Below, one piece after another: positions 36,556 through 50,131 of a stretch of DNA of 50,504 nt. The notes beneath the pieces were generated by a model, which saw only the letters and a list, made by a program, of their open reading frames with translations, was not told the DNA's origin and ran no database searches. The DNA lies in IMG/VR virus record IMGVR_UViG_3300042924_004437, positions 1-50,504 of that record; one strand, given 5' to 3'. This stretch comes from a virus. Position 1 is the stretch's first letter; each line of letters starts with the position of its first letter. The position numbers and the translations under genes were made by a program.

Positions 36556-38135
36556 TCCCACAGTCTCCCGATGATGCGATGATATTTGCCATCGCGTTTG
36601 TATGTGATGCCCGCTGGCGGCCTTGAGGCATTCATCACGGCAGCAGCGCCGTCGAGCGTAATACCTTGCCTCAACTGCGCGCCAGCACTGCTGGCAATGA
36701 TGCCAAGCGTCGCCACCGCCTTTTCACCGGCGTAACCGCCGTGCGTGACCGGAAAATATTCCTCGACCAGCGGATCGCTCAGGCCGCCATAGTACGACAC
36801 GGCCAGCATTTCCTTGCCACTGGCGCGGCTCGTGTGCTTGCGCCACCTCCACTCCGTAACCGTCATCTCCTGCACATCGACGCCCATGATGTCGTCGTGG
36901 TGCAGCTCCAGCTTGGGCTTCTCGGGTTCTGGGAACGGCGTATCACAGGTCGGGCAGATCTTGGCGCTGATGTGTACCAGCTCGTTGCAGGCATCGCAGA
37001 CTTTGACCGGTGCCTCGCCGTTGCCCTTGCCTGCCTTTTTGGGCGGCTGCACAGCGGTGATCGGCCCATGCGCCTGCACCACCCCCGCAAAGTCCAGCAC
37101 CAAGCAGTGATCGGTGTGGCTCTTCACGCGCATCCCGCGGCCAGCCATCTGGACATACAGGCTGGCGCTCATCGTCGGCCGCAGCATGGCAATCAGATCG
37201 ATGTCGGGATAGTCGAACCCGGTCGTGAGGACGTTTGCGTTTGTCAGCGCCCGCAGGCGGCCGGCCTTGAAATCCGCCAGTATCTGCTCGCGATCGGCCT
37301 TTGGCGTTGTGCCCACCACGCAAGCCGCCGGGATTCCGCGTTGGTTCAGCAGCGCCGCGATTTGCTCGGCATGGTGGACGCCGGCGCAAAAAAACAGCCA
37401 CGCCTTGCGCCCCTCCGCCCGATCGATCACCTCGTCAACCACGGCGACGTTGTTCTCGTCGGTATCGATCGCCGCCTGCAGCTCGCTCTCGATATACTCT
37501 CCGCCCCGCTTGTGGACGCCGCTCACGTCGAACGTGGCATTGGTGGGCTTGCTACGCAGGGTGGAGAGAAACCCTTTGTAGATCAGTTCCGCGATCGACA
37601 CCGGCTCGATCATGGCGTGGAACAGGGCCGGTGCGTCGGTGATCAGCCCGTGGCCCAGCCGGTATGGCGTGGCTGTCAGGCCCACGACGCGCAGCGCCGG
37701 GTTGATGGCGGTGAGATCGGCCAGCAGGTGACGATAGCTGCCCTCGTCTTTGTGCGACACCAGATGGCACTCATCGATGATGACGAGATCAATGTGGCCC
37801 AGTTGCTGCGCCTTACTCCGCACCGATTGAATGCCGGCGAACGTGATTGGCTCGCCGAGGCGCTTGCTTCGCAGCCCGGCGGAATAGATGCCCATCGGCG
37901 CGTTAGGCCAATGTTCGCGCATTTTGGCAGCATTCTGCTCAATAAGCTCTTTGACGTGGGTCAGCATCAAGACGCGCGTCTCCGGCCAGTTTTGAAGCGC
38001 ATCTTTGCACAGCGCCGCCACGATGTGGCTTTTGCCGGAGCCGGTTGGCAGCACCAGACACGGGTTGCCGGCGTTGCCCGCAGCGAACCAGCCATACAGC
38101 TGGTCGATGGTGTGCTGTTGATAGTCACGGAGCAT
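36552..38135 (-). CDS. DEAD/DEAH-box superfamily 2 helicase
   Basis: ATG 38135 with GGAGG six bases upstream is preferred over a longer frame; the product has 527 residues. LPTGSGKSH (Walker A, about 29-37), IIDECHLVS (motif II), VGLTATPYR (motif III) and YVQMAGRGMR (motif VI) define an SF2 helicase of the UvrB/SSL2-like phage type. A four-Cys ribbon (VCDACNELVHISAKICPTCD) follows near residues 385-405. It probably unwinds DNA during replication or recombination with the neighbouring nucleases. Typical length for the family. Confidence 0.92.
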   Translation of the reverse strand: MLRDYQQHTIDQLYGWFAAGNAGNPCLVLPTGSGKSHIVAALCKDALQNWPETRVLMLTHVKELIEQNAAKMREHWPNAPMGIYSAGLRSKRLGEPITFAGIQSVRSKAQQLGHIDLVIIDECHLVSHKDEGSYRHLLADLTAINPALRVVGLTATPYRLGHGLITDAPALFHAMIEPVSIAELIYKGFLSTLRSKPTNATFDVSGVHKRGGEYIESELQAAIDTDENNVAVVDEVIDRAEGRKAWLFFCAGVHHAEQIAALLNQRGIPAACVVGTTPKADREQILADFKAGRLRALTNANVLTTGFDYPDIDLIAMLRPTMSASLYVQMAGRGMRVKSHTDHCLVLDFAGVVQAHGPITAVQPPKKAGKGNGEAPVKVCDACNELVHISAKICPTCDTPFPEPEKPKLELHHDDIMGVDVQEMTVTEWRWRKHTSRASGKEMLAVSYYGGLSDPLVEEYFPVTHGGYAGEKAVATLGIIASSAGAQLRQGITLDGAAAVMNASRPPAGITYKRDGKYHRIIGRLWE

Positions 38136-39945
38136 TGAAAGCCTCCACTGCTGCAATGCGCTCTCCAATCCAGCGCATCACCGGCACCGCCATGCTGTTG
38201 CCCAGCGCCTTGTAGCGCGGGCCGTCAGGGCAATCCTCTGAGCCTTTCTTGCGCCACGGGATGGCGGTGTAATCGTCGGGGAAGCCTTGCAGGCGCTCGC
38301 ACTCGCGCGGGGTGAGGCGGCGGACGGCGGATGCAATCGCTACAGATGCGTAATGCCGACGCGTTAAAGTTGGATTGACGCCGCTTGTGTCTGGAGTTGT
38401 AAAAGACATATTAGCTTCAAACGCCACCGTAGGCGGATGCGCGCCTGCCGCCAGTGGGTGGCACGGATCACCGGCTTGCGGGTTGCTGTAGTTGTGCGGG
38501 CTGCTGATCTGGGTGGTGTCAAAGGCGATGGCTGGCAAAGGATGCCCACCACCTGTTGGGCTGCCTTTCATGATCGGCCCCGTTGGCTCCCACGGCTCAT
38601 GACCGTTGTTTTCATAGTCAACGCCGCCAATTAAGGTAAACGGCGTGACGACGAAGTCGCCGCCCTGATTGCCACTCACTGGGCCTCCCGCCATGATCGG
38701 CTGCGCCACCTCAGTCTCGCGGGCCTTGTAGTCCTTGCCGCTGTTCATCGGCATGATGGAGTAGGCCACGGCTGGCATATTGCCGCCGCCGTCTCCACCC
38801 TTGCGGATAGTCGGGCAGATGTTGTCACCTGCGTCAGCTCCGTGGTCGCCCTTGCTGAAGGCGATATAGTTGGTCTGCTTCATGCCAGACGAAGCGGCCA
38901 GTGCGCCAACGATCTGGCCATCCCCGTTGATGTAGCGCACCTCATCGCGGGTGTTCTGGGCAAAGGCGATGATCTGCTTAGGGTTCGTACTTTCCAGCGT
39001 AGGCATGACATGGCGGTGTTCGCCCGTCCCGCCGTGGATGTTGTTGTACCGCCCGGGGTGATCATAGGCCACTGCGTGGCTGTGACCGGCTTGTAACGTG
39101 TACGCCGGATCGCCCGCATTACCCACACCGACACCCTCTCGGCTGCTGTTTGAGGTATCAGCACCGCGCAGTCCAAGTTGCGTGTTGATCGGATACGCCA
39201 CGTCAGGCACGAACAGCGGGCAGCCTGCGTTGACGTGCTGGTTGTTCTGTCCCCACTTGCTGGCGAAGTCAGTGTCGAGGGTGCAGGCCACACTCGCGGG
39301 CCAGCCTACAGCAGGTCGCTCCCCTCCGGCATCGCCACGCTCTCCAGCGCCCGTTGCAGCGCCGCTGGCAGCGTCTTGCCGCGCTTCTCGGCTCGGCGCA
39401 GGATGCCCTGACATGCTGTGGCGCTCAAAAAGAACCGCTGCGGCAGGTCGCCAGTCTCCAAGGTATCCGACAACGAACACACGACGGCGGCGCTGGGCCA
39501 CTCCGAAGTACTGAGCGTCAAGCACTCGGTAGGCCCACCCATACCCGAGTTCGCCCAAGCCCCCGAGTATGGAACCAAAGTCCCGTCCGCCGTTGCTTGA
39601 CAAGACGCCGGGGACGTTCTCCCAAACCACCCATCTGGGCCGCTTTCGGTCAGCAAGCCTAAGAAACTCAAGGGCCAAGTTGCCACGGTCGTCATCCAGT
39701 CCGCCTCTGAGGCCAGCGACGCTGAACGACTGGCAGGGGGTTCCTCCGACAAGAAGGTCAATTGCTCCATATTGATCTGCTCCTATGGTGGTGAAGTCGC
39801 CGTGCAGTGGCACGGTTGGATAGTGATGCGCCAACACGGCGCGCGGAAATGGCTCAATCTCACTAAAAAAAGCAGGCTGCCAGCCAAGCGAATGCCATGC
39901 GGCGGTTGCGGCTTCGATGCCGCTGCAAACTGATCCGTATTTCAC
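38125..39945 (-). CDS. DNA (cytosine-5) methyltransferase with long repeat-bearing insertion
   Basis: GTG 39945 overlaps the upstream stop (GTGA) and has GGAGG in front. Of 606 residues, the first 160 carry motif I (GSVCSGIEAA), motif IV with catalytic Cys71 (GGTPCQSFSVAG), ENV at 109-111, and QRRRRVFVVG. Motifs IX and X (RRLTPRECERLQGFPDDY, YKALGNSMAVPVM) are at the end. Between them are about 360 residues with at least five degenerate units of the type PTI-x-GG-x-G-x-x-PAVA, replacing the usual shorter target-recognition region. It probably protects phage DNA against host restriction; no cognate nuclease is seen. Confidence 0.92.
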   Translation of the reverse strand: MKYGSVCSGIEAATAAWHSLGWQPAFFSEIEPFPRAVLAHHYPTVPLHGDFTTIGADQYGAIDLLVGGTPCQSFSVAGLRGGLDDDRGNLALEFLRLADRKRPRWVVWENVPGVLSSNGGRDFGSILGGLGELGYGWAYRVLDAQYFGVAQRRRRVFVVGYLGDWRPAAAVLFERHSMSGHPAPSREARQDAASGAATGAGERGDAGGERPAVGWPASVACTLDTDFASKWGQNNQHVNAGCPLFVPDVAYPINTQLGLRGADTSNSSREGVGVGNAGDPAYTLQAGHSHAVAYDHPGRYNNIHGGTGEHRHVMPTLESTNPKQIIAFAQNTRDEVRYINGDGQIVGALAASSGMKQTNYIAFSKGDHGADAGDNICPTIRKGGDGGGNMPAVAYSIMPMNSGKDYKARETEVAQPIMAGGPVSGNQGGDFVVTPFTLIGGVDYENNGHEPWEPTGPIMKGSPTGGGHPLPAIAFDTTQISSPHNYSNPQAGDPCHPLAAGAHPPTVAFEANMSFTTPDTSGVNPTLTRRHYASVAIASAVRRLTPRECERLQGFPDDYTAIPWRKKGSEDCPDGPRYKALGNSMAVPVMRWIGERIAAVEAFNAP

Positions 39946-42587: not shown

Positions 42588-42704
42588 AATGGCTCTCCGT
42601 CGTTAGCACCTGTCGGACCATCCAGTCGGTGCGTAAAAGGGTCTTTACAGCGCCTATCGTGCGGTTGTAAACCCCCCAATGTGCAAAAATCAACGGGGTC
42701 GAAA
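42588..42704. promoter_or_regulatory. divergent control region with TTTACA/TGTAAA dyad
   Basis: This 117-base gap separates the leftward Sak4 operon from the rightward regulator and primase genes. TTTACA (42644-42649) and TGTAAA (42666-42671) are inverse complements 16 bases apart. A minus-strand TTGATT (42693-42688), 18 bases, TACAAC (42669-42664) is a modest leftward promoter candidate. The dyad is a plausible operator for the Cro-like protein encoded just to the right. Hexamer matches are weaker than at 10660. Confidence 0.5.
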
Positions 42705-42887
42705 ATGCTCACACTGGAACAGATACGAACTGCGCTTGACGATCGTAATGTCGAAAAGGTTGCGGAGCGCACGGGCATCCATCGCAACACCATCGGGGCG
42801 ATCCGCAACGGCACGAACGCCAATCCGACATATGCGACGATGAAAGCGCTGTCTGACTATCTGACTGCGGCCACCGTCGATGGTTGA
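42705..42887 (+). CDS. Cro/CI-like HTH regulator
   Basis: I chose ATG 42705 (CGGGGTCGAAA upstream), 60 residues; an earlier ATG-less extension adds only non-homologous residues. LTLEQIRTALDDRNVEKVAE, RTGIHRNTIGAIRNGTNANP and TYATMKALSDYL are a complete lambda-repressor-type helix-turn-helix with recognition helix near residues 29-37. At the divergent region it probably controls leftward early versus rightward replication transcription. It overlaps the primase gene by eight bases. No lysogeny genes accompany it, so a Cro-like role is favoured. Confidence 0.85.
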   Translation: MLTLEQIRTALDDRNVEKVAERTGIHRNTIGAIRNGTNANPTYATMKALSDYLTAATVDG

Positions 42888-44907
42888 CCTCACCAACATA
42901 TTGGGTGGCCCGTGGTCACCGCCGAAAGTGGCGCAGCCTGATCCACCGGCCGTGCAGCTGCTGGATGCCATGCAGCGATCGGGACTAACGCCGCCGCGTG
43001 AGATTGTCCTCGATGGCAAGCTGCACCGCTTCAACTCCGGCACGAAGGGAAGCCCCGGCGCCGGCGACAAATCCGGCTGGTACGTGGCCTACTCGGATGG
43101 CATCCCCGCCGGCCGTTTCGGCTGCTGGCGCGCTGGCATCGAATCGACGTGGCGCGCAGACGTGGGCCGGAACTTGACCCCGGCCGAGGAAATGGCCCAC
43201 GCCCGCCGCATGAACGAGGCCAAAGCCGCCCGCGATGCAGAGACGGCTCGTACCCGCGAGACCGCCGCCAACACCGTCGAGGCTATCTGGGTCGGTTGCA
43301 TGGGCGCCGATCCGGCGCATCCCTATCTGGCGCGCAAGGGCGTCGCCGTGCATGGCTCCCGCGTCACGGGCGATGGCCGGCTGGTCGTGCCGCTCTATAC
43401 GCCAGACGGGCATCTGGCGTCGCTCCAGTATATCGATGTGGACGGCGGAAAGCTGTACCACTCCGGCGGCCAGACTGGCGGCTGCTATTGGATCGTCGGG
43501 ACGATGGATGAGCCGGGCACCGTCTACATTGCCGAAGGTTTCGCCACGGCCGCGACCATCCACGAAGTCACCGGGCGCCCCTGCGTCGTGGCCTACTCGG
43601 CCTCCAACCTCGTACCCGTCACCGGCTCGATACGCGAGCTGGTTGGGATCGCGGCGCCAATCACGATCGTGGCAGACAACGACACATCCGGCACGGGCCA
43701 GAAATACGCCGATCAGGCCAGTGCCAAGCACGGCGCGCGGGTCGTCATGCCCCCCATCCCCGGCGATGCGAACGACTACGTGCAGGCGGGGCATGATCTG
43801 AGGGCGCTGCTGAACCCGCCGCCTGCAGTCACAGATTGGCTCACTCCGGCCGATGACTTCTGCCTCGAGCCCGCGCCGATCAAATGGCTGGTCAAACACT
43901 GGCTGCAAGAGCAAGCCCTCATCATGGTGCACGGCCCGTCAGGTGGCGGCAAAACTTTCGCCGTGCTGGACTGGAGCCTGCACATCGCGTCGGGTCGCAC
44001 CGACTGGCATGGCCATCGCGTCAAGCCCGGCCCAGTGGTCTATCTGGCCGGCGAGGGCCATCACGGCTTGCGCAGCCGCGTTGCCGCGTGGAAGCAGCAC
44101 CACAAAGCCGGCACACTGGACATGTGGATTTCCAAAACCGGCACGGACCTGAACACGCCAGAGGGCTATCAGCGGGTGGTCGATGCCATTCGCGCGCTGC
44201 CACACCCACCCAGCCTCATAAACGTCGACACGCTGCATCGCTTCCTGTTCGGCGATGAGAATAGCTCCGTCGACGCCAAGACCATGATCGACGCCTGCGC
44301 GGCTCTCATGCGGGAGTTCAACTGCTCTGTGCTGCTCGTCCACCACACCGGCGTTGCCGATGAGGCCCAACACCGGGCGCGCGGATCGTCCGCATGGAAG
44401 GGCGCGCTCGAGATCGAGATCAGCGTCGTCCCCGCCAAAGGCGACACGCCAATCCAGATCGTGCAGCGCAAGTCCAAGGACGCAGAAGAGGCCGAGCCGA
44501 TCTTCGCAAACCTCCAGTCCGTTGCCATCAACGGCTGGCTGGATGAGGATGGCGAGCCGGTTACCAGCGCCGTGCTTGTAACCGCAGAGGCACCCCCAGA
44601 GCGGAAAAAAGAATCCAAATTGGATACATGGCGCAAGATGTTCGAAAGCGCGTGGTTCGATTCCGGCGCCGAAATCGCCAACGGGAAGCCATTTGTGTCG
44701 CGATCGGCGCTGCTCGATTACCTCAAAATCAAGCTGGATTTGAGCGAGGCATATGCCCAGCAGTACCTCAAACCAAGCGTCACCGACAAGCTGATCGGGG
44801 TGCTGACCTTGGCCGAAATTGTGGAGAAAAATGGGGTCGGATTTGCCGTAATTTGCCAAAAAACGGCGGACAACATGATGATGGCCCGAAATGGCCAAAA
44901 AGCCTAG
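42880..44907 (+). CDS. primase-helicase (TOPRIM plus RecA-like ATPase)
   Basis: The 675-residue protein starts at ATG 42880. The N-terminal part (about 45-85, FNSGTKGSPGAGDKSGWYVA) resembles phage/plasmid primase heads. TOPRIM elements are VYIAEGFATAATI (about 215) and IVADNDTSGTG (about 263). The RepA/DnaB-like ATPase has GPSGGGKTF (about 353) and SLINVDTLHRF (about 446). A winged-helix-like tail follows. It would make primers and unwind DNA at the phage origin; the adjacent repeat-rich gap at 44908 is a candidate origin. TAG stop. Confidence 0.9.
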   Translation: MVDLTNILGGPWSPPKVAQPDPPAVQLLDAMQRSGLTPPREIVLDGKLHRFNSGTKGSPGAGDKSGWYVAYSDGIPAGRFGCWRAGIESTWRADVGRNLTPAEEMAHARRMNEAKAARDAETARTRETAANTVEAIWVGCMGADPAHPYLARKGVAVHGSRVTGDGRLVVPLYTPDGHLASLQYIDVDGGKLYHSGGQTGGCYWIVGTMDEPGTVYIAEGFATAATIHEVTGRPCVVAYSASNLVPVTGSIRELVGIAAPITIVADNDTSGTGQKYADQASAKHGARVVMPPIPGDANDYVQAGHDLRALLNPPPAVTDWLTPADDFCLEPAPIKWLVKHWLQEQALIMVHGPSGGGKTFAVLDWSLHIASGRTDWHGHRVKPGPVVYLAGEGHHGLRSRVAAWKQHHKAGTLDMWISKTGTDLNTPEGYQRVVDAIRALPHPPSLINVDTLHRFLFGDENSSVDAKTMIDACAALMREFNCSVLLVHHTGVADEAQHRARGSSAWKGALEIEISVVPAKGDTPIQIVQRKSKDAEEAEPIFANLQSVAINGWLDEDGEPVTSAVLVTAEAPPERKKESKLDTWRKMFESAWFDSGAEIANGKPFVSRSALLDYLKIKLDLSEAYAQQYLKPSVTDKLIGVLTLAEIVEKNGVGFAVICQKTADNMMMARNGQKA

Positions 44908-45064
44908 CGTATCTACGCGTACTTTTTGAAAAGATACGGTGGAAGTCATTGAAATACAAAGGAAAGTGGTTGTGGCGTATCTTAGATCGTATCTTCACCG
45001 GGGCAGGGCGAGTCAGCGTACCGTATCGTACTCCCCCCCTAAGGGGGGATACGAAAAGTACGCT
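44908..45064. other. candidate replication origin: CGTATC repeats and nested palindrome
   Basis: The largest non-coding gap (44908-45110, 203 bases) follows the primase gene. CGTATC occurs directly at 44908, 44976, 44988 and 45022 and inverted at 44933-44938 and 45048-45053. AGCGTAC (45015-45021) and GTACGCT (45058-45064) enclose the last direct/inverted pair and a CCCCCC/GGGGGG stem, forming a nested palindrome of 50 bases. The stretch 44920-44975 is AT-richer. Iteron-like repeats plus a dyad next to a primase suggest an origin; a regulatory hairpin is the alternative. Confidence 0.5.
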
Positions 45065-45110
45065 ACGAGCGGTACGTTTCGAGACGGGCTGAAGTGGGGT
45101 GGAATTGGGC

Positions 45111-45389
45111 ATGAAAATTGATCAGGTCTTGGGGGAGCGTGGCACCCGATATGGGACGTTCGTGGAGTCGGCGCTCGTCGCCCAAAACGTCAAGGCCGCG
45201 ATGCGGCATAGCGCGGGCTGGCACAGTCTCCCAGCCGATGCGCGTGAGGCGCTCGAGATGACGGCGACGAAGGTCGCGCGCATCCTGTGCGGCGATCCCC
45301 TCTATGTCGATTCGTGGCGCGACATTGAGGGATATGCTAAACTGGTCGCAGATCGGCTGGAGAGCAGCCAAAGCATGGTGGAGGATTGA
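45111..45389 (+). CDS. DUF6378 family protein
   Basis: The 92-residue protein starts at ATG 45111; upstream GTG 45099 is less likely. RGTRYGTFVESALVAQNVKA, WHSLPADAREALEMTATKVA and RILCGDPLYVDSWRDIEGYA are the complete DUF6378 pattern, a helical phage family with conserved acidic residues of unknown activity, sometimes compared with MazG-like folds. It lies between the candidate origin and the terminase genes. Confidence 0.85.
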   Translation: MKIDQVLGERGTRYGTFVESALVAQNVKAAMRHSAGWHSLPADAREALEMTATKVARILCGDPLYVDSWRDIEGYAKLVADRLESSQSMVED

Positions 45390-47530: not shown

Positions 47531-50131
47531 ATGGAAGACGATGACGATCTGCCCGAGACCGAAGTGGTCGATCTGGGCGAGGCCGACGACGAGGACGTGA
47601 TCGACACGCCCGACGGCGGCGCCATCGTCCGACTGGACGACGATGACGACCTCGCACCGCGCAGCGACGACTTCCTCGCCAACCTCGCCGAGGAAATGCC
47701 CGAGAGCGAGCTGCAGACGCTGGCGCAGTCGTACCTCGACCTGATCGGCAAGGACAGGGAGGCGCGCAAGAAGCGCGACGAGCAGTACGAGGAGGGTTTG
47801 CGCCGCACCGGTCTGGGCGACGACGCGCCCGGCGGCGCGCAGTTCAACGGCGCGACCAAGGTCGTCCACCCGATGCTGACCGAGGCCTGCGTGGACTTCG
47901 CCGCCCGCGCCATCAAGGAGCTGTTCCCGCCGCAGGGGCCGGTCAAGGACATGATCCCCGGCGAGGTGACGGCCGACAAGGTCAAGAAGGCCAAGCGCAA
48001 GACGACGTTCATGAACTGGCAGCTCACCGTCCAGTCCAGCGAGTTCCGCGCCGAGCTGGAGCAGCTCCTGACGCAGGTGCCGCTGGGCGGCGCGCAGTAC
48101 ATGAAGGTCACGTGGAAGGAAGACCGCAACCGGCCTGAGTTCCTGTTCGTCGCGATCGACGACCTGTACCTGCCGTTCGCTGCAACCAACTTCTACACCG
48201 CGCAGCGCAAGACGCACGTGCAGTATCTTACGGCCGTGGACTACCAGCGCCGCGTCAAGAGCGGCATGTACCGCGACGTGGATCTCGGCCCGGTCAGCAT
48301 GGAGCCCGAGTACAGCGTCGCCGAGAAGGCGAACAACAAGATCGAGGGCCGCGAGGAGACCAGCTACAACGAGGATGGCCTCCGCACCGTCTACGAGGTG
48401 TACACCATCGCCGCGATCGAGGACGACGAGGCGCTGCCGTACATCATCAGCATCGACAAGCCGTCGGGCAAGGTGCTCAGCATCTACCGCAACTGGGACG
48501 AGCTGGACGAGGCGCAGGAAGAGCTGCAGTGGTTCGTCGAGTTCCCCTTCGTGCCGTGGCGCGGCGCGTACCCGATCGGCCTGCCGCACATGGTCGGCGG
48601 TCTGGCGGCCGCCGCGACGGGCGCACTGCGCGCCCTGCTCGACAGCGCGCACATCAGCAACAGCCAGACCATGCTCAAGCTCAAGGGCGGCAGCAAGGGC
48701 GGGCAGAGCCTCGAGATCCAGCCGACGCAGGTGATGGAGATCGAGGGCGGCATGGCGGCGGACGACATCCGCAAGCTGATCATGCCGCTGCCGTACAACC
48801 AGCCGTCGCCGGTGCTGTTCTCGCTGCTCGGCTTCTTGGTCGATGCGGGCAAGGGCGTCATCCGCACCAGCATGGAGGACATCGCCGACGGCAACGCCAA
48901 CGCGCCGGTCGGCACGACGCTCGCCAAGATCGAGCAGGGCATGGTCGTGTTCAGCGCCATCCACGCCCGCCTGCACAACTCGATGCAGAAGCTGCTGTCG
49001 ATCCTGCACCGCCTCAACGCCATGTACCTCGACGACGAGGAGACGGACGCCGAGCTGGGCGAGGAGCTGGCCACGCGCGCCGACTTCGAAGGCCCGCTCG
49101 ACGTGGTGCCGGTCAGCGACCCGAACATTTTCTCGGAGGCGCAGCGCTTCGCGCAGGTGCAGGCCGTGGCCCAGCGCGCGGCCGCGCTGCCGCAGCTCTA
49201 CAACTTGCGGAAGGTCGAGGAGCGCATCCTCGACACGCTCAAGATCCCCAACGCCAAGGAGCTGCTCAACCCGGCGGTGGAGCCCAAGGAGCGCAACGCC
49301 GTCAACGAGAACGTGGCGGCGACCATGGGCCAGCCGATCGTGGTCTTCCCCGAGCAGGATCACATCGCCCACCTCAAGACGCACTTGGCGTACATGCTCT
49401 CGCCCGCGCTGGGCATGAACCCGCTGATCGCGCCGACGTACCTGCCGATGATCCTGAACCACATCCGGGATCACCTCGCGTCGTGGTACGCCTACAGCGT
49501 GTTCGAACTGGGCACCGAGGCGACGGGCGAGGACATCGGCGACGTGCTGAAGGCGATCAAGGATCCCGACGACAAGCGCGCATTCGACGCCATGCTGGCC
49601 GAGGCTTCGCAGACGGTGGTGCAGCAGGCCGGCAACGTGTTTGCGTCGCTGCCGCCCGTCATCCAGCAGGCGCAGCAGGTCATGCAGTCGCTCGCGCCGC
49701 AGCCGCCCATGGATCCGAACACGCAGGCGGCCATGGAGCAGCTCAAGCTGCAGGCGCAGCAGATCCAGCAGCGCGCCCAGTCCGACGCGCAGCGCATGCA
49801 GCTCGATGCAGCGAAGACGCAGCAGCAGGCCCAGACTGATCAGGCCAAGCTGCAGCTCGACGCGGCCAAGACGCAGCAGCAGGCCCAGAACGATCAGGCC
49901 AAGCTGCAGATCGAGCAGGCCAAGCTGCAGCTCGACGCGCAGCAGGGGCAGGCGAGCATCGCCTCCGCCCAGCAGATCGAGCAGATCGAGAACCAGCGCA
50001 AGCTGTCCGAGATGCAGGTACGTCAGGCGATGAACACGCAGGACAACCTGACGGCCATGGAGCTGGCCAAACTCGAGGTCGAGACGGGCGAGCGCTTCGG
50101 CGTCAGCACCGGCACCGGCATCAACCCGTAA
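47531..50131 (+). CDS. portal protein
   Basis: The 866-residue protein has ATG 47531 preceded by AAGGAGCGGGC. The N-terminus is acidic. TGLGDDAPGGAQFNGATKVV HPMLTEACVDFAARA, FPPQGPVKDMIPGEVTADKV and GLPHMVGGLAAAATGALRAL mark the P22/SU10-like portal family that forms the dodecameric DNA gate. Residues about 715-830 form a Gln/Ala coiled coil with near repeats (LQLDAAKTQQQAQ), probably the long internal barrel seen in such portals. Larger than the 725-residue P22 portal because of that tail. Confidence 0.92.
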   Translation: MEDDDDLPETEVVDLGEADDEDVIDTPDGGAIVRLDDDDDLAPRSDDFLANLAEEMPESELQTLAQSYLDLIGKDREARKKRDEQYEEGLRRTGLGDDAPGGAQFNGATKVVHPMLTEACVDFAARAIKELFPPQGPVKDMIPGEVTADKVKKAKRKTTFMNWQLTVQSSEFRAELEQLLTQVPLGGAQYMKVTWKEDRNRPEFLFVAIDDLYLPFAATNFYTAQRKTHVQYLTAVDYQRRVKSGMYRDVDLGPVSMEPEYSVAEKANNKIEGREETSYNEDGLRTVYEVYTIAAIEDDEALPYIISIDKPSGKVLSIYRNWDELDEAQEELQWFVEFPFVPWRGAYPIGLPHMVGGLAAAATGALRALLDSAHISNSQTMLKLKGGSKGGQSLEIQPTQVMEIEGGMAADDIRKLIMPLPYNQPSPVLFSLLGFLVDAGKGVIRTSMEDIADGNANAPVGTTLAKIEQGMVVFSAIHARLHNSMQKLLSILHRLNAMYLDDEETDAELGEELATRADFEGPLDVVPVSDPNIFSEAQRFAQVQAVAQRAAALPQLYNLRKVEERILDTLKIPNAKELLNPAVEPKERNAVNENVAATMGQPIVVFPEQDHIAHLKTHLAYMLSPALGMNPLIAPTYLPMILNHIRDHLASWYAYSVFELGTEATGEDIGDVLKAIKDPDDKRAFDAMLAEASQTVVQQAGNVFASLPPVIQQAQQVMQSLAPQPPMDPNTQAAMEQLKLQAQQIQQRAQSDAQRMQLDAAKTQQQAQTDQAKLQLDAAKTQQQAQNDQAKLQIEQAKLQLDAQQGQASIASAQQIEQIENQRKLSEMQVRQAMNTQDNLTAMELAKLEVETGERFGVSTGTGINP

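Follow-up and report, generated by a model that had tools for sequence, protein, structure and literature searches.

A variable iteron array adjoining a phage primase-helicase gene as a probable replication origin

Genes and repeats at the locus

The DNA analyzed here (hereafter the window) is a stretch of 50,504 nucleotides of the virus record IMGVR_UViG_3300042924_004437 in IMG/VR. It contains a primase-helicase gene, the start of which is overlapped by the gene of a small Cro-like transcriptional regulator, and an array of short repeats that begins directly behind the stop codon (Table 1). The gap holding this array had initially been annotated as non-coding and as lying between the primase-helicase and the packaging genes, which was confirmed: a small gene (45099-45389) follows and precedes the terminase small-subunit gene, which starts ~0.3 kb downstream of the array. 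Elsewhere in the window, the DNA of the portal gene region (47593-49435) is 77% identical to that of the Caulobacter phages RW, KcrB, RLK and GB2A, and the replication helicase is only ~35% identical to theirs, so that the histories of the structural and the replication modules differ. On the minus strand a 606-aa C5-cytosine DNA methyltransferase (38125-39945) adjoins a Cas4-type exonuclease and a helicase, and a protein encoded at 32453-32989 matches a phage family annotated as ferredoxin (PHROG 3704, E=5.6e-15).

Table 1. Features of the primase-helicase locus and of the adjoining repeat array; positions are those of the window.
Feature	Position	Strand	Basis or remark
Small Cro-like transcriptional regulator, overlaps start of primase-helicase gene	42681..42887	+	PHROG 18104, E=3.6e-13
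Primase-helicase, 675 aa, proposed initiator	42880..44907	+	TOPRIM primase, RepA/AAA_25 ring helicase, C-terminal winged helix
DNA coding for C-terminal winged-helix domain (residues ~578-675), proposed iteron reader	44611..44904	+	AlphaFold2, co-variation with the word
DNA coding for recognition helix (residues 623-630)	44746..44769	+	Model and association with the word
Iteron array, proposed replication origin	44908..45064	.	Repeat positions and comparison with relatives
Iteron CGTATC, first base directly 3' of stop codon	44908..44913	+	
Degenerate iteron GCGTAC	44917..44922	+	Relatives have a copy of the word here
AT-rich stretch, candidate unwinding element	44920..45000	.	AT content of 80-nt windows
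Iteron CGTATC, inverted	44933..44938	-	
Iteron CGTATC, first of middle direct pair	44976..44981	+	
Iteron CGTATC, second of middle direct pair	44988..44993	+	
Word-independent GGGGCA(A) element	44999..45009	+	Kept in most relatives
Degenerate outer iteron GCGTAC, left arm of dyad	45016..45021	+	
Iteron CGTATC, left of hairpin	45022..45027	+	
Central hairpin TCCCCCC(CTAA)GGGGGGA	45032..45049	.	Arms vary in relatives yet stay complementary
Iteron CGTATC, inverted, right of hairpin	45048..45053	-	
Degenerate outer iteron GCGTAC, right arm of dyad	45058..45063	-	

All six copies of CGTATC (four direct, two inverted) from which the initial annotation had proposed an origin are present within 146 bases. 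The sequence is not dense elsewhere (16 copies in the remaining 50.3 kb, against an expectation of 14.5 over the entire window), and at that background 0.046 copies would be expected per 146 nt, far below one, as had been claimed. For CGTATC itself, a word picked after the fact, the cluster has P ~1e-11 in 146 nt. When any 6-mer is allowed, however, six copies per 150 nt were reached in one of 30 second-order Markov simulations of the contig, and five other 6-mers of the real window likewise reach 6-7 per 150 nt. Hence the single-genome statistic is weak, over-representation in one genome was rejected as proof, and the decisive evidence is comparative.

The dyad AGCGTAC...GTACGCT is real and measures 50 bp (45015-45064), with a C7/G6 stem instead of the C6/G6 stem first described; its GCGTAC arms are degenerate iterons at the outer positions, and a third such copy lies near the start of the array. 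The stretch at ~44920-45000 belongs to the top 0.04% of the contig's 80-nt windows in AT content. A change in cumulative GC skew near 45 kb, suggested as a check on the origin, was recovered only as a local minimum (44,532), the global minimum of the contig lying at 24,243; with the completeness of the contig unknown, global skew was set aside as evidence for the window.

The array in related phages

Scans of IMG/VR and of genomes yielded 191 distinct loci at which the gap behind the primase-helicase gene could be read; these loci are related to each other, often lie on fragmentary contigs and come from mostly unknown hosts. An array was scored as present when the top 6-mer occurred at least five times, counted over both strands, in the 200 nt after the gene; this was the case at 165 of 180 scored loci, compared with 17 of 1840 control tiles taken from the same loci. 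The comparison of the gap among related phages, by which the initial proposal was to be judged, speaks for it, as arrays with the same layout were found directly after the same gene at ~180 homologous loci. At a few loci, L078 and L249 among them, no recognisable array was found near the gene. Six distant relatives (L302-L304, L306, L307, L310) have very different recognition helices and the repeats GGGGGT (7-10 copies) or CTAACA (7-8 copies).

The layout comprises, in order, outer inverted copies of the repeated sequence (hereafter the word), a middle direct pair, the element GGGCA(A), forward words, a hairpin with the core CC(TTTA/TATA)GG and reversed words. Independent of the word, GGGCA(A) occurs in 119 of 153 distinct gaps (~0.08 expected per gap); in most relatives, as GGGGCA(A), it separates the middle iterons from the hairpin. 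Among the 126 gaps with the hairpin core, 110 show at least two forward words to its left and at least two reversed words to its right, and the copies facing the wrong way amount to four in total.

The word itself is CGTATC in close relatives of the window and GGTAAC, GGAAC, TGACCC, TGGACA, CCCCCT, CGTAAC, CGCAAC, GGGACA, CGCCCC, TGCCCC, GGCCCC, CGGACC, CGTACC, GGTACT, GGTACA or one of several rarer sequences elsewhere. Words were classed by program, and some classes were then joined manually; GGAAC, for example, pools GGGAAC and CGGAAC. All copies within one phage change jointly, and a tree built from residues 1-575 of 165 proteins requires, by parsimony, at least 60 changes of word.

The arms of the hairpin are complementary at their positions 1, 2 and 3 in 95, 92 and 82% of cases, as against 40, 30 and 25% when partners are shuffled, and all four Watson-Crick combinations are in use; this comparison covers 38 distinct arm pairs next to the core, which were de-duplicated only and not corrected for the tree. 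The dyad, which the initial annotation had expected to be conserved, is kept in layout and complementarity but not in its letters.

Four named phages with complete genomes carry an array in the same place: the Alteromonas phages PB15 and XX1924 (GGTTCA, 13 and 12 copies), Idiomarinaceae phage 1N2-2 (GGTACA, 11 copies) and Salicola phage CGphi29 (GGGACA, six copies). In each of them it is the strongest short-repeat cluster, tied with another 6-mer in CGphi29, it is situated ~1-3 kb or less from the cumulative GC-skew minimum (1N2-2 being read as a circle) and its region is AT-rich (top 0-0.4%). Since genes change direction beside the primase gene, GC skew is confounded by gene orientation. Two criteria for an iteron origin are fulfilled, namely a short-repeat cluster found once per genome and adjoining the initiator gene, and, in the window and the four named phages, an AT-rich stretch for unwinding that lies within the array or next to it. 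None of the four records has an origin annotated at the array, and no account of it in this phage group was found in open-access full text, subscription papers not being covered. The SpTIGR TIGR-Tas locus (PMC12045711) comes from the same phage CGphi29 (L386, NC_020844).

The C-terminal domain and its association with the word

The helicase part of the protein belongs to the RSF1010 RepA family (PF13481, E=7e-37; 1g8y, E=7e-7), and the combination of TOPRIM-type primase, helicase and C-terminal winged helix in one chain corresponds, in architecture only, to the P4-alpha type. Membership in the P4 alpha family was rejected, since the helicase matches RepA/AAA_25 and no P4 protein is among the PDB sequence or fold matches listed. 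A Pfam search with the ~100-aa C-terminal domain gave no match, and a PDB sequence search nothing meaningful. AlphaFold2, supplied with an alignment of 73 sequences, predicted a confident winged-helix fold (mean pLDDT 87.7), with which the model of the full-length protein agrees; the third helix of the domain model, which includes residue 628, is the recognition helix. Foldseek retrieved only generic winged-helix regulators from the PDB (best E=0.038), so that the domain could not be tied to a solved origin-binding domain. In BFVD it matched the Prim_Pol replication protein A0A6J5RWR5 of an uncultured phage (TM 0.90 over the domain, 36% identity); the domain thus occurs on an unrelated primase too, and these models suggest that it may move between unrelated primases.

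Where the core of the protein (residues 1-575) is 95-100% identical, mean identity of the domain (residues 585-665) is 0.92 between phages with the same word and 0.63 between those with different words. The pair L014/L006 is 99.3% identical in the core and 33% in the domain, and its words are GGCCCC and CGTATC, respectively. Scored by column over pairs matched for core identity, association with the word is led by residues 628, 634, 625, 629 and 631 and averages 0.33 for residues 620-645 versus ~0.00 for residues 1-575; plain mutual information over columns is less clean because of shared ancestry. Single residues stand out: the closest GGTAAC/GGAAC pairs have Q628 and V628, respectively, in 11 of 11 cases, and on tree-independent pairs six to seven of seven agree and none is opposite. 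In L199 (GGTAAC) and L098 (GGAAC), whose domains differ only at 628, 634, 635 and 661, the word has changed though the domain is still 95% identical. As far as comparison of sequences can tell, the word co-varies with the C-terminal domain, chiefly with recognition-helix residues 625-634, and not with the first 575 residues.

This association also carries predictive power. When whole lineages were left out (n=115; only comparators with <75% core identity), the word was predicted correctly in 67% of cases from the nearest recognition helix, in 11% from the nearest core and in 7% from a random comparator. In a later set of 85 usable loci, which were fetched afterwards, predictions from a helix with an identity of >=0.75 and from the core disagreed in 28 cases, and the helix was right in 28 of 28 and the core in 0 of 28; many of these loci are close relatives, and the independent cases are fewer. 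The misses L347 and L335 have CGTACC instead of the predicted CGGACC, and S in place of Y at 634, like the CGTACC class. In L247 and L248, which carry an insertion and are the same contigs as L318 and L317, the predicted TGCCCC array is present, displaced ~140-380 nt downstream of the stop codon. For very divergent helices (identity below ~0.7) the word could not be predicted. That the primase-helicase reads the word is inferred, with strong indirect support from co-variation and prediction.

In three pairs (L006/L014, L015/L022, L139/L114) DNA identity drops near residue 577 and does not recover until ~210-260 nt after the stop codon, so that the tract of low identity covers domain and array alike: the two were exchanged jointly, as one block of ~500 bp.

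Function of the array and comparison with known systems

Taken together, the gap is in all likelihood (probability roughly 0.87) an iteron-type replication origin recognised by the primase-helicase encoded directly upstream, where both binding and replication activity are inferred. The origin proposed by the initial annotation is thereby strongly supported through comparison, namely by the array beside the gene, by co-variation of word and domain and by the named phages, and replication itself has not been demonstrated.

The most serious competitor, which we consider improbable without dismissing it, holds that the same C-terminal domain binds the array as a transcriptional operator of the downstream or the primase genes and that the origin is elsewhere. 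Co-variation indicates only that the domain reads the word and not what binding would effect, and initiators often regulate transcription as well; however, the array follows its own gene instead of preceding it, stays in place while the downstream gene differs among relatives, and is accompanied by a single weak promoter-like match and no called terminator in the region. Its AT-rich stretch, two-way iterons and central hairpin fit origins better, and the reader is a primase-helicase.

That the array might be a packaging (cos/pac) site, or the shared origin and packaging control site also considered in the initial annotation, is very improbable: the proximity of the terminase small-subunit gene in the window is not general, since downstream genes differ between relatives and the terminase genes are 5-6 kb away in PB15 and XX1924, where the array remains with the primase gene, and the word changes with the primase-helicase. 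That the array serves the small Cro-like regulator as operator can hardly be upheld, although such proteins bind short inverted repeats and the regulator gene always adjoins the primase gene, as the regulator does not co-vary with the word (its identity is equal whether words agree or differ, and L014 and L006 possess near-identical regulators with an identical HTH core yet different words), by which the regulator was refuted as reader of the word. Equally remote is a structured RNA or terminator, for which the strong hairpin of the window (folding z ~ -3), its compensated arms and weak sub-threshold Rfam matches (whalefall-1, mir-6644) could be adduced, but no terminator was called, no Rfam match at the gathering threshold was obtained in 20 relatives, and folding leaves unexplained why one shared word follows the recognition helix of a protein. 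The whalefall-1 match (44991-45052, minus strand; 20.3 bits versus a gathering threshold of 37) is probably a chance likeness of GC hairpins.

If the array is an iteron-type origin, several initiator molecules would bind the iterons via the winged-helix domain and melt the AT-rich stretch between them, after which the RepA-type helicase ring could load and the fused TOPRIM primase would lay the first primers, possibly at the single-stranded hairpin, as RSF1010 RepB' does at ssiA/ssiB. As the reader is encoded next to its target, the domain could be swapped together with the origin as one cassette of ~500 bp, or both could shift jointly by a few point changes, and many origin types would result that are expected not to work with each other's initiators.

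A more far-reaching reading remains tentative, and we put it at somewhat less than an even chance: that the word is a hypervariable 'password' of the origin under diversifying selection, that helix and word follow a simple recognition code (Q628 with GGTAAC and V628 with GGAAC; Y634 with CGGACC and S634 with CGTACC), and that winged helix and array form a module portable between unrelated replication proteins. Possible drivers within the same conjecture are the evasion of nucleases directed at the origin, of satellites or of decoy origins, or the avoidance of cross-talk between co-infecting relatives.

For a large, mostly uncultured phage group an initiator, its DNA-binding domain and its target are hereby proposed at once, and origins as well as origin-compatibility groups become predictable from protein sequence. 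With more than 20 protein-DNA specificities matched by nature on a scaffold that hardly varies, some of them in near-identical pairs that differ at a few residues, two questions become directly testable: how winged-helix recognition helices come to read other DNA words, and which forces make phages alter their origin again and again.

On our best reading, an iteron origin bound by the C-terminal domain of its own initiator is of a known kind, exemplified by P4 alpha, RSF1010 and RepA of the PLE satellites, and new is its hypervariable, decodable variant. In phage P4, alpha unites a TOPRIM-type primase, a helicase and a C-terminal winged helix that binds the origin repeats in one chain (PMC4234260). 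The same three-part polypeptide with a winged-helix tail is encountered here, with binding inferred, but it differs in its RepA/AAA_25 helicase, in an origin that follows the gene immediately and has a central hairpin, and in the hypervariable word; the fold matches listed do not include the P4 domain. RSF1010 possesses iterons, the RepA helicase and the priming stem-loops ssiA and ssiB (PMC4234260), and has in common with the present system a RepA-family helicase (1g8y) and iterons with small stem-loops; its RepA, RepB' and RepC are separate proteins, with RepC reading the iterons of oriV, whereas here a single chain carries a winged-helix tail as the proposed reader. A hairpin with compensated arms is present, and its use as a priming site of the ssi type is conjectural. 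The crenarchaeal plasmid pRN1 displays a small regulator gene, the primase-helicase ORF904 with a C-terminal winged helix and an essential stem-loop directly downstream (PMC4234260), and thus the same gene order and a stem-loop whose letters vary while pairing is kept; ORF904, however, combines an archaeo-eukaryotic primase with an SF3 helicase, iterons are lacking, and specific binding to the stem-loop region was not detected there.

With regard to variability, a counterpart in module exchange is offered by PLE satellites, in which the RepA_N DNA-binding domain co-varies and is swapped with the origin, works only in the cognate combination, and an origin-directed nuclease was proposed to drive the swap (PMC8263062). 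There, too, the DNA-binding domain of an initiator and the origin are swapped as a module, but two module types stand against at least 20 words here, including shifts tied to single residues. Iterons of geminiviruses (5-6 nt) are conserved in position and pattern and very diverse in sequence, and diversifying selection is thought likely (PMC12548392); the conserved layout with diverse letters is shared, whereas Rep acts in rolling-circle replication of single-stranded DNA viruses of plants, and protein and replication mode are unrelated. Phage lambda, in turn, is blocked by extra copies of its cognate origin (PMC4488673). By analogy, the cases of PLE, lambda and geminiviruses offer selective reasons why the word might constantly change.
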